Below, one piece after another: positions 39,969 to 43,003 of a stretch of 64,000 nt of DNA (its first letter is position 1; every line of letters begins with the position of its first letter). The DNA is from Adhaeribacter terrigena (GTDB taxonomy: Bacteria; Bacteroidota; Bacteroidia; Cytophagales; Hymenobacteraceae), in the NCBI RefSeq assembly GCF_016623615.1, contig NZ_JAEHFX010000001.1, positions 124,001 through 188,000 on the forward strand, read 5' to 3'. The translations under genes were made by a program, and so were the position numbers. The notes under the pieces are model-generated. The model did no database searches. It was not told the DNA's origin and saw nothing but the letters and a program-made list of their open reading frames with translations.

Positions 39969-41147
39969 ATGGCTTATAACCCTACCGAATTTTTAGATTA
40001 TTACAACATCGACGACCTGCTGACCGATGAGCACAAGCTGATCCGCAAGTCGATCCGCGATTTCGTTAAAAAAGAAATTTCCCCGAACATCGAAAAATGG
40101 GCGCAGGATGCACATTTCCCTTCCGAGATCGTGAAGAAATTTGGCGACGTAGGCGCGTTTGGTCCGACCATCCCGGAACAATACGGCGGCGGCGGTCTGG
40201 ATTACATTTCCTACGGCTTAATTATGCAGGAAATTGAGCGCGGTGATTCCGGTATGCGTTCTACGGCTTCGGTACAAGGTTCTTTGGTAATGTACCCGAT
40301 TTACGCGTACGGTTCGGAAGAACAACGCAATAAATATCTGCCAAAATTAGCCAGCGGCGAATGGTTGGGTTGCTTCGGTTTAACCGAGCCGGATCATGGT
40401 TCGAACCCGGGCGGCATGCTGACCAACATCAAAGACATGGGCGACCATTATTTGTTGAACGGCGCTAAAATGTGGATCTCCAATTCTCCGGAATGCCAGA
40501 TCGCGGTAGTTTGGGCGAAAAACGAACAGGGCCGCATTAAAGGTCTGATCGTGGAGCGCGGCATGGAAGGTTTCACCACCCCGGAAATTCACAACAAATG
40601 GAGCTTACGCGCCAGCTGCACCGGCGAACTGGTGTTTAACAACGTGAAAGTGCCGAAAGAAAATTTATTGCCTAACATCGACGGTCTGAAAGGTCCTTTA
40701 GGTTGTCTGGACTCAGCCCGTTTCGGAATTGCCTGGGGTGCTATTGGTGCCGCCATCGATTGCTACGAATCAGCTTTGAAGTATTCTTTAGAGCGTATCC
40801 AGTTCGATAAACCGATTGCCGCTTTCCAGTTAACGCAGAAAAAACTGGCCGAAATGGTTACCGAAATCACCAAAGCCCAGATCATGGTTTGGCGTTTAGG
40901 TATGCTGAAAAACGAAGGCAAAGCTACTACGCAACAGATCTCCATGGCGAAACGCAACAGCGTAGACATGGCCCTGCACATTGCCCGCGAAGCCCGCCAG
41001 ATCCACGGTGGCATGGGTATTACCGGTGAGTATCCGATCATGCGCCACATGATGAACCTGGAATCGGTGATCACCTACGAAGGAACTCACGACATTCACT
41101 TATTGATCACGGGTGCCGATGTAACCGGCATTCAGGCGTTCAAGTAA
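39969..41147 (+). CDS. Acyl-CoA dehydrogenase, glutaryl-CoA dehydrogenase-like
   Basis: FAD enzyme of 392 aa that would oxidise an acyl-CoA, probably glutaryl-CoA in lysine or tryptophan breakdown. Seen are the N-terminal helices, CFGLTEPDHGSNPGGM (FAD contact), KMWISNSPECQIAVVWAK, RFGIAWGAIGAAIDCYESALKYSLERIQF and QIHGGMGITGEYPIMRHMMNLE. The late YEGTHDIHLLITGADVTG carries the catalytic Glu position of the glutaryl-CoA group. The substrate is inferred from these group features only. The gene is transcribed alone. Confidence 0.92.
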   Translation: MAYNPTEFLDYYNIDDLLTDEHKLIRKSIRDFVKKEISPNIEKWAQDAHFPSEIVKKFGDVGAFGPTIPEQYGGGGLDYISYGLIMQEIERGDSGMRSTASVQGSLVMYPIYAYGSEEQRNKYLPKLASGEWLGCFGLTEPDHGSNPGGMLTNIKDMGDHYLLNGAKMWISNSPECQIAVVWAKNEQGRIKGLIVERGMEGFTTPEIHNKWSLRASCTGELVFNNVKVPKENLLPNIDGLKGPLGCLDSARFGIAWGAIGAAIDCYESALKYSLERIQFDKPIAAFQLTQKKLAEMVTEITKAQIMVWRLGMLKNEGKATTQQISMAKRNSVDMALHIAREARQIHGGMGITGEYPIMRHMMNLESVITYEGTHDIHLLITGADVTGIQAFK

Positions 41148-41203: not shown

Positions 41204-41232
41204 AAAAGCAGCTCAGAGATGGGCTGCTTTTT
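41204..41232 (+). terminator. Rho-independent terminator
   Basis: AAAAGCAGC pairs with GCTGCTTTTT around a 10-nt loop. Confidence 0.88.
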
Positions 41233-41248
41233 GTTTTGCGTTATTACA

Positions 41249-41300
41249 TTATTGCGTCATCCCGAGCGCGGTTGAGGGAACTATCGCATACCGAACCTGT
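41249..41300 (+). repeat. Left inverted repeat of the GIY-YIG unit
   Basis: Begins TTATTGCGTCATCCCGAGCG and continues with GAGGGAACTATCGC. It aligns with the reverse complement of 41682-41733 with about six mismatches in 52 positions. Confidence 0.88.
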
Positions 41301-41349
41301 TGAACTTATAATTCCAGACAGAAGTTGAATTGTCCAAATTAATCGTTAT

Positions 41350-41733
41350 ATGTCTGGAAATATCTACTTCGTTTATATCACTACCAATCCTAAACGGACT
41401 ACCTATTACATTGGCATCACAAACGATCTAGCAGTAAGGCTCCAACAACATCTTGAGAATTGTGGTGACAAAAAGACTTTTGCTGGCCGCTATTATTGCT
41501 ATAAGTTAGTTTACTTTGAAAGGTTCACAAATCCAACGCATGCAATTGAAAGAGAAAAGCAGGTAAAAGGTTGGCGTAGGGATAAGAAAGAAGCGTTAAT
41601 TAAAAGTCTAAACCCGGATTTTAAATTTCTAAATTATATTGTTGAAGAAGTGGACGTTTATCTTTCAATCAAAAATGATCAGCGGGTTCGGTACGCGATA
41701 GTTCCCTCGGCTGCGCTCGGGATGACGCAATAA
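41350..41733 (+). CDS. GIY-YIG nuclease family protein inside an inverted-repeat unit
   Basis: Small single-domain endonuclease-type protein of 127 aa. The GIY-YIG core is seen as YFVYITTNPKRTTYYIGITNDLAVRLQQH, with the catalytic Tyr and Arg, and AIEREKQVKGWRRDKKEALI, with the metal-binding Glu. Relatives are the short UPF0213-like proteins abundant in Bacteroidota. The last 16 codons, RVRYAIVPSAALGMTQ and stop, are encoded by the right inverted repeat, so gene and repeat are one unit. DNA cutting is expected from the family, but target and role are unknown. The gene is more AT-rich than its neighbours. Confidence 0.88.
   Translation: MSGNIYFVYITTNPKRTTYYIGITNDLAVRLQQHLENCGDKKTFAGRYYCYKLVYFERFTNPTHAIEREKQVKGWRRDKKEALIKSLNPDFKFLNYIVEEVDVYLSIKNDQRVRYAIVPSAALGMTQ
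41682..41733 (-). repeat. Right inverted repeat of the GIY-YIG unit
   Basis: On the minus strand it begins TTATTGCGTCATCCCGAGCG and runs through GAGGGAACTATCGC, mirroring 41249-41300. It overlaps the 3' end of the GIY-YIG gene, including the stop codon. Confidence 0.88.
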
Positions 41734-41945
41734 ATTTAAAATTCAACGCCTTTTAAACCCTTGAGTACGGCAGCTTAGAAACCACCACAAATTTCTAAAT
41801 CTCCCTTTGCTAACTACGTTAGATAAACCACTTTTAATAGCAATAATTTTAGTAAAAAAGCGTAAATTTGTATAGCCTCCGGGACTTATTCCGGGCGCAA
41901 AAACGTTACTGAAAAGCCATTTCTTCCTGCTGCAAAGTGAAGGAT

Positions 41946-41974: not shown

Positions 41975-43003
41975 ATGAGAGAAGAATATTTAACCGGCTC
42001 GGATGAACACATGTCGCCGGCCGAAAAAGAAATAGACAAGGCACTACGCCCGCTCGATTTCAGCGATTTCACCGGCCAGGAAAAGGTGGTGGAAAACCTG
42101 AAAATCTTCGTGGAAGCGGCGCGCCGGAGGGGAGAGGCCTTGGACCACGTTTTATTACACGGACCTCCGGGTTTGGGTAAAACCACGCTGTCGCACATCA
42201 TTGCTAACTCGCTGAATTCGAATATTAAAATTACGTCGGGTCCGGTTCTGGATAAGCCCAGCGACCTGGCCGGTTTGCTAACGAATCTGGAGCAGAACGA
42301 CGTGCTTTTCATCGATGAAATTCACCGCCTTAATCCGATCGTGGAAGAATACCTGTATTCGGCGATGGAAGATTACAAGATCGACATCATGCTGGATTCC
42401 GGCCCGAATGCGCGTTCGGTGCAGATTAGCCTGAATCCGTTCACGCTGATTGGCGCCACTACGCGTTCCGGTTTGCTGACCGCGCCTTTAAGAGCCCGTT
42501 TTGGGATCAATTCCCGCCTGGAATATTACGATTCGGCCTTATTAACGACCATTGTAAAACGTTCCTGCGAAATTCTGCAAACCTTCATTCACGACGATGC
42601 CGCGTTTGAAATTGCCCGCCGGAGCCGTGGTACGCCGCGTATTGCCAACAACCTGCTGCGCCGTACCCGCGACTTTGCCCAGGTAAAAGGCGACGGAACC
42701 ATTACCGTAGATATTGCCCGCTTTGCCCTGAATGCTTTGGATGTAGATCAGAACGGATTAGACGAAATGGATATCCGGATCTTAACTACGATCATCGAGA
42801 AATTCAAAGGTGGTCCGGTTGGTTTGAGCACTATTGCCACGGCCTGCGGCGACGAAGCCGAAACCATTGAGGAAGTGTACGAGCCTTTCCTGATCCAGGA
42901 AGGCTACATCATGCGGACTTCCCGGGGCCGCGAAGCAACCGAAGCAGCTTATCGCCACTTGGGTAAAATTCCGCCGCAGCGTGTGGGTACTTTGTTTGAA
43001 TAA
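41975..43003 (+). CDS. ruvB: Holliday junction branch-migration ATPase RuvB
   Basis: Hexameric AAA+ motor that, with RuvA, drives branch migration of Holliday junctions. The 342-aa protein has [21 protein letters not shown], Walker [10 protein letters not shown], Walker [11 protein letters not shown], the sensor region [19 protein letters not shown] and the winged-helix C-terminus ending [20 protein letters not shown]. RuvA and RuvC genes are not adjacent. The ATG sits directly behind an E29 copy, which therefore forms the immediate leader. Confidence 0.98.

Follow-up and report, generated by a model that had tools for sequence, protein, structure and literature searches.

A GIY-YIG nuclease gene between CGTC-tagged inverted repeats: a candidate REPtron-like unit and possible partner of CGTC REPs

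Why does a small GIY-YIG nuclease gene of Adhaeribacter terrigena sit between inverted repeats, one of which runs into the gene itself? The locus lies in the window, by which we mean the whole 64-kb stretch of DNA analyzed here, in a genome of 4.43 Mb and 24 contigs. Our best reading, drawn from comparisons of sequences, is that of a REPtron-like unit in which a GIY-YIG nuclease takes the place of a RAYT, a candidate partner of the CGTC REPs. The features that the argument needs are as follows.

39969–41147, plus strand: flanking gene (acd), which we take from its protein sequence to be acyl-CoA dehydrogenase-like; anchor for the orthologous-site comparison
41204–41231, no strand assigned: 12-nt inverted repeat, then T-rich sequence; terminator-like
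41249–41303, plus strand: left terminal repeat, a CGTC-tagged, REP-like arm; tag CGTCAT at 41255–41260, outer TTATTG; has further genomic matches
41308–41363, no strand assigned: 13-nt inverted repeat (41308–41320 and 41351–41363), 92% complementary, spanning the nuclease start codon
41350–41733, plus strand: GIY-YIG nuclease gene, 127 aa; catalytic domain at residues 6–80, tail 98–127 predicted disordered
41679–41733, minus strand: right terminal repeat, inverted; tag CGTCAT on the minus strand at 41727–41722
41975–43003, plus strand: flanking gene, presumably ruvB from its protein sequence; one match per genome in 39 of 39 genomes searched

The unit and its nuclease

The outer end of the left repeat, TTATTGCGTCAT, begins exactly at 41249, and its inverse, ATGACGCAATAA, closes the unit exactly at 41733, which is the stop codon of the nuclease gene. 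The sequence-only reading had inverted repeats flanking a complete GIY-YIG gene, and this holds to the base. It also had the surrounding DNA as intergenic, and the unit does lie in the interval between 41147, where the acyl-CoA dehydrogenase-like gene ends, and 41975, where ruvB begins. An inverted-repeat search placed the arms at 41236–41303 and 41679–41746 (68 nt, 82% complementary), and the two were aligned pairwise. As an inverted repeat, the real flanks scored 48 at best. Among 2000 Markov-resampled flank pairs the top score was 25, and it was 25 again at 2000 positions of the same geometry in the window, so that 0 of 2000 matched the real flanks in either control. This rules out a chance inverted repeat.

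The right terminal repeat overlaps the stop and about 17 final codons of the gene, not 16 codons as had been proposed. The repeat-encoded C-terminus is real in the window's unit but is not a general feature, since 50 of 66 enclosed homologs have an intact frame and a stop before the repeat. For that reason, the repeat-encoded tail looks incidental. A C-terminus that requires the repeat is ruled out by those earlier stops together with a tail pLDDT below 50. At the other end of the gene, the start codon is spanned by the 13-nt inverted repeat, which could be a translation-control hairpin.

The 127-residue product matches the Pfam GIY-YIG family at residues 6–80 (E = 5e-16), the sole family passing the cut-off. 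Profile searches found no second domain and no match to a UPF0213 family model. The conserved catalytic Tyr, Tyr/Gly, Arg and Glu of the GIY-YIG superfamily are present. Y9, Y20, G22, R30 and E69 are invariant in alignments of 20 and of 24 proteins, as is H34 in the 20-protein alignment. In the AlphaFold model, the domain is predicted with confidence as far as about residue 97, and residues 98–127 fall below pLDDT 50. Fold matches were modest overall: the top PDB match in Foldseek was the UPF0213 protein 1zg2 (E = 1.9e-4, rmsd 7.4), the only one with E < 0.001, followed by Slx1 (E = 0.007) and then UvrC, and I-TevI was a weak match (E = 1.3). Slx1 is a nuclease on branched DNA, to go by PDB entry titles. 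The window nuclease is also similar to 1zg2 in phmmer (E = 0.0014). Small GIY-YIG proteins of the UPF0213/COG2827 type thus resemble it in sequence and fold. Unlike it, they have no repeat association in the accessible text of PMC1839093, which gives Caulobacter three small COG2827 genes whose role is open, or among the literature matches listed.

The nuclease gene is, by sequence comparison, under purifying selection. Among 309 pairs with at least 60% identity, 103 had a computable dS; dN/dS was below 0.5 in all 103, with a median of 0.12. Decay occurs too, as a stop inside the aligned stretch in 13 of the 71 nuclease matches of a 59-genome search, or in 4 of 70 nuclease loci when the same decay is measured by the shorter domain match.

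Repeats around the gene and across the nuclease family

The sequence-only reading had suggested collecting genomic copies of the repeat and related GIY-YIG genes, and the window's genome holds both. A search with the left arm gives 50 matches at E up to 10, among them the arm itself and its partner. A second GIY-YIG gene, whose protein is 75% identical to the window nuclease, is enclosed by inverted copies of an entire 141-bp dimer. With a fuzzy tag, head-to-head pairs 60–260 bp apart were found in 35 of the 40 loci L004–L043, and 29 of these 35 pairs measure 112–149 bp. Once one duplicate and the two dimers flanking the second GIY-YIG gene are set aside, about 32 gene-less dimers are left, which are too short to hold the nuclease gene. 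The dispersed copies are tagged CGTC or GGTC. In their arrangement, the gene-less dimers show REPIN anatomy. They are typically unlike-armed: one arm is of the nuclease-unit type, and the other belongs to a second type. In several, both outer ends resemble ATTATT. The nuclease units of this genome have like arms or whole dimers.

CGTC REPs are found in five phyla and apparently have no dedicated transposase (Di Nocera et al. 2013, PMC3733652). As far as the accessible text of that paper goes, CGTC-tagged families include Neisseria dRS3 and Rickettsia RPE-4 and RPE-6, and the published repeat has CGTC (or TGTC/CCTC) at its outer end, a stem of 8–9 bp starting from AT, a loop of 4–5 and a tail that is often CCA. 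The window family shares with them the CGTC outer end, a palindromic core, head-to-head dimers and dispersed copies. The window arms carry CGTCAT at both ends of the unit but lack the published 8–9 bp stem, and single-arm folding of four sequences gave folds no better than those of shuffles. We therefore call these arms CGTC-tagged and REP-like, and not members of the published families.

Does the association extend to other copies of the gene? The nuclease was found in 37 of 59 genomes, its own included, at E = 1e-8, with one to five matches each in differing places. We assembled 115 GIY loci: 70 from the 59-genome set, 29 from named genomes (KSB1, Calditrichota, Acidobacteria, Brocadiia, Chloroflexi, Omnitrophota and others) and 16 from plasmid records, for which 16 of the 33 matching records were taken. 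Locus L114 is the same as L077; it is counted in the 115-locus tally and omitted from the co-divergence, spacing and published-stem counts. A strict tag was defined, after relatives had been inspected, as GTCAY plus a 4-nt stem; for these loci, inward-facing tags were counted within 300 bp of the gene.

Strict inward tags stood on both sides of 65 of the 115 loci, on one side of 25 and on neither side of 25. The corresponding counts were 40, 18 and 12 of 70 in the 59-genome set; 13, 6 and 9 of 28 in the named genomes (duplicate L114 removed); and 11, 1 and 4 of 16 in the plasmid records. Per locus, the 150 bp adjoining the gene held 0.66 inward strict tags on the left and 0.61 on the right (115 loci), falling to 0.02–0.07 per 150 bp past 450 bp from the gene. 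Outward-facing tags were also raised beside the gene, at 0.24 and 0.32 per 150 bp, as expected because dimers flank some nuclease genes. The strict definition overlooks short-loop repeats such as GTCATTCAGGAGGAA, which do form matched pairs, and by this test the copies on Novosphingobium pNL2 and in the Rhizobium tumorigenes, Photobacterium GJ3 and Sinorhizobium C101 records appear unflanked.

A phylum-wide search, gathered after the tag had been defined, found the nuclease gene in 148 of 296 genomes at E = 1e-18, with up to 10 copies. Its 30 best-scoring loci, which are not a random sample, had strict tags on both sides in 24 cases and on one side in 6. With the same scanner, ruvB loci drawn from other genomes had tags on both sides in 0 of 28 cases and on either side in 4 of 28. 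Under a 450-bp rule, Y1_Tnp loci had tags on both sides in 0 of 30 cases and on one side in 6 of 30, and the GIY set had them on both sides at 69 of 115 loci. Spacing was also regular: the left tag lay 38–60 bp from the extrapolated residue 1 in 29 of 66 matched pairs. The pairing of the flanks at 29 loci was compared with 348 mismatched-flank controls (maximum score 33), and 7 of the 29 scored above all of them, and 14 of the 29 were reached by at most four controls. An earlier mismatched-flank control, with a maximum of 724, was left unused because loci sharing sequence had been mixed in it.

All of this bears on the plainest explanation, that an ordinary small nuclease gene happens to lie in repeat-rich intergenic DNA. 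The 25 loci of 115 with no strict tags speak for it. The orientation, symmetry and spacing of the tags, the co-divergence described below and the ruvB and Y1_Tnp controls all speak against it, and we consider it very improbable.

Some copies of the nuclease are enclosed by repeats of the published type. A scan for the stem described in PMC3733652 (8–9 bp from AT, loop 4–5) showed that CGTC REPs enclose 12 of 144 nuclease loci and flank 17 on one side or both; the ruvB figure was 0 of 28. The window's locus is not among the 17. The 12 loci are those of Azospirillum lipoferum (L172), N. gonorrhoeae (L174) and Aeromonas (L177), four rhizobial records and five Bacteroidota. A. lipoferum is a CGTC-positive species in PMC3733652, at least in its accessible text. 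By these scans, true CGTC REPs are linked to the nuclease family taken as a whole, and the window's unit is only CGTC-tagged and REP-like. A separate observation concerns Planktothrix agardhii plasmid p1 (L169), where the nuclease gene lies in a defense locus, between a gene for an MmeI-like restriction enzyme and DISARM drmA.

Sites with and without the unit

The earlier reading proposed a search for empty sites in relatives, and the unit is indeed absent at orthologous positions in three settings. In A. lipoferum 4B, a dimer-gene-dimer unit separates sufB and sufC; among the 12 plasmid records that span at least 80% of this query, the middle is absent by coverage in the other 11, and three aligned Azospirillum records without the unit have no repeat at the site. 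A unit of genome G024 with identical 95-bp arms is absent in G019 and G059, where its flanks are 28 and 114 bp apart and no tag was seen in the inspected junction sequence. G019 and G034 carry units 84–86% identical to it at other places. At the window's own locus, genome G018 has 163 bp between its acd and ruvB matches, with no tag.

Nor are the gene and its repeats fixed between acd and ruvB in relatives; fixity at one place in distant relatives, with no other copies or empty sites, was what the earlier reading took as its refutation. In thirteen other family genomes the acd and ruvB matches are about 1.2 kb apart or less, and by coordinates no GIY match at E = 1e-8 falls between them. The sister genome G001 has a different GIY unit there, with 55% amino acid identity, another repeat class and the opposite orientation. 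Different as they are, both units lie shortly past the terminator-like hairpin at 41204–41231.

A fourth setting is less simple. In Sphingobium, the unit lies between fnrL and a regulator gene, and TYG72 has neither unit nor repeat there. TYG74 (L187) and TYG64 (L189) have one solo palindromic CGTC...GACG repeat where relatives hold the unit, which could be a deletion scar or a target. The inspected junctions (Sphingobium, Azospirillum, G001, G018, G019, G059), in intergenic DNA that is too diverged, yielded neither a unit-free site exact to the base nor a target duplication. Base-exact empty sites were not found in two Sphingobium 50-kb stretches or in the relatives of G019 either.

A 20-kb stretch of G019 has five repeat sites, and repeats also stand at these sites in G024 (5 of 5), G059 (5 of 5) and G034 (3 of 5), often of another class, as classes were read by eye. 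This suggests in-place turnover or a hotspot. The stretch is locus L342 (G019:C3:40001–60000), with orthologous dimers of different classes at sites 509, 7945, 13660, 15165 and 18845; site 13660 has ATGTC in G019 and G024 and ATGCT in G059.

Such occupancy raises the possibility of REP-directed homing. The repeats would then be pre-existing targets, the nuclease would cut unoccupied or non-cognate repeats, and the unit or a dimer would replace them by gene conversion; the gene would spread among repeat sites and not to new ones. The different GIY unit past the same hairpin in G001, the shared G019 sites and the solo repeats of TYG74 and TYG64 are what such homing would leave. But there is no such repeat at the unit-free sites of G018, G019, G059 and the three aligned Azospirillum records, so the whole unit was gained or cleanly lost. 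The unlike arms of the gene-less dimers in the window's genome, against the like arms or whole dimers of its nuclease units, also count against homing, as do the single detected domain of the nuclease and its weak fold match to I-TevI. We regard REP-directed homing, with the gene confined to repeat sites, as unlikely. A homing-like variant of the mechanism favored below does have real support, in the shared G019 sites and in the two acd-ruvB units. Sites without any repeat argue that insertion at new places happens as well as replacement.

Co-divergence, dispersed copies and a possible mechanism

Repeats differ strongly from locus to locus, and protein identity predicts their similarity. For 66 loci, the Mantel r was 0.57, reached in 0 of 2000 shuffles; different-genus pairs alone gave r = 0.45 (0 of 2000 shuffles). 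Shuffling confined within genomes gave a mean r of 0.42, and 0 of 2000 attained 0.57. The 66 loci, out of 114, are those whose inverted tag pair scored at least 15, a cut-off chosen after the repeat pairs had been inspected. One genome can hold several types, as in G004 with two ATGTC units, one ATCCT unit and two ATTGC units. Co-inheritance as a unit, with repeats hitch-hiking with the gene, is enough to produce co-divergence, so recognition of the repeats by the nuclease is not proven by it.

Dispersed repeats tend to follow the nuclease, in counts that include the repeats flanking the units themselves and for which reversed-pattern controls gave 0 or 1 per genome. ATGTC repeats number 58, 153, 67 and 80 in the 4 of 59 genomes with an ATGTC-flanked nuclease; they are nonzero in 7 of the 55 others, at most 34 (G010 and G014, 34 each). 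ATTCA repeats number 222, 37, 9 and 52 in the four genomes with an ATTCA-flanked nuclease and are present in 2 of 55 without a detected cognate unit (G008 and G028). ATTGC repeats are nonzero in 7 of 7 genomes with a cognate unit versus 6 of 52 others (Fisher 5e-6), where the seven are the genomes passing the score and G035 and G054, which were assigned by eye, are not among them. G025 has 131 ATTGC repeats and no detected ATTGC-flanked nuclease.

Taken together, these comparisons show the nuclease gene and its repeats as one unit, with related units at different chromosomal places, orthologous sites that lack the unit, and a nuclease and repeat that diverge together. The sister unit, gene-less copies, unit-free sites and co-divergence fit, at the level of sequence, the initial idea of a compact mobile unit with terminal repeats and a GIY-YIG nuclease instead of a transposase.

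The nuclease might still be a passenger or helper captured in a repeat unit, with the repeats moved by a RAYT/Y1 enzyme, another transposase or replication errors. Repeats without a detected cognate unit (G025, G010, G014, G008, G028) fit this, as do Y1_Tnp matches in 29 of 39 genomes. But the window's genome, G013 and G024 have repeats and no Y1_Tnp (PF01797) match, and the Y1_Tnp loci surveyed, the only transposase type covered, are never tagged on both sides. A resident Y1/RAYT enzyme as the mover is rejected on these two counts. The passenger explanation is further weakened by the purifying selection on the gene and by the enclosure of the same gene family by different repeats in several phyla, for which repeated capture would be needed. 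It seems to us quite improbable, more so than homing.

The reading we favor, and think fairly probable, is that the unit is a nuclease-encoding member of a CGTC-tagged, REP-like family whose nuclease triggers copying of the repeats. We infer that the nuclease drives movement of the unit. The GIY-YIG protein would be a structure-specific nuclease that recognizes its own repeat as a hairpin, a cruciform or a branched replication intermediate. It would cut or nick near the CGTC tag, so that the segment bounded by the repeats is copied elsewhere. GIY-YIG enzymes hydrolyze DNA, and no end-joining activity is known for them; for this reason copying would probably be finished by host repair. The copied segment may land at new intergenic sites or in existing REPs. 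The gene-less dimers would depend on the nuclease acting in trans, much as REPINs are thought to depend on RAYTs.

In its general form, the proposal is of a class of mobile element with a single-domain GIY-YIG nuclease as its only enzyme, which cuts its own CGTC REP while host repair copies the segment; we give this wider claim an even chance. Such an element would be the missing partner of the CGTC REPs (dRS3, RPE-4/6 and others), evolved independently of the RAYT-REPIN system. The literature matches listed, which excluded preprints and covered few subscription papers, included no paper tying GIY-YIG genes to CGTC REPs, REPINs, dRS3 or RPE-4, and the term "GIY" is absent from the main text of PMC3733652.

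Several known elements share features with the unit. RAYT REPtrons and REPINs also combine a lone small enzyme gene, bounded by inverted REPs or REP dimers, with many gene-less dimers, according to the accessible text of PMC3733652, where RAYT genes are also described within inverted repeats other than GTAG REPs. The window's enzyme differs in being a GIY-YIG nuclease and not a Y1 HUH protein, its tag is CGTC and not GTAG, and its genome is without a Y1_Tnp match. GIY-YIG homing endonucleases of the I-TevI type share the type of catalytic domain; unlike them, the window's unit is intergenic, has terminal repeats, yielded no second domain and matches their fold weakly. MITEs and insertion sequences share terminal inverted repeats and gene-less relatives, but the sole gene here is a GIY-YIG nuclease, and the inspected junctions showed no target duplication.

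A gene family enclosed in many lineages by matched repeat types makes the search for an enzyme partner of the CGTC REPs a matter for a cleavage assay. If the favored reading is true, an enzyme class would be added to those of DNA mobility, and this would be a new kind of mobility if the nuclease proves to move REPs. Proteins annotated only as "GIY-YIG nuclease family protein" would gain a role, and a second, independent REP-enzyme partnership would be available for comparison with RAYT-REPIN.

The dispersed dimers themselves have some further features. Those of G019 have about 50 nt of arm in common with the G019 nuclease unit and mostly AGAAC outside it. On inspection, both arms of the G019 dimers L292–L305 often carry the same loop variant, e.g., GCGAAGTC, as if homogenized, and L296 appears to have a repeat nested within a repeat. 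The G025 dimers (L306–L311) are uniform, at about 155–165 bp, and highly amplified, with an internal second palindrome. In G018, G023 and G003 (L272–L291), 55-bp ATTCA dimers lie within a longer palindrome, with outer sequence conserved on both sides.
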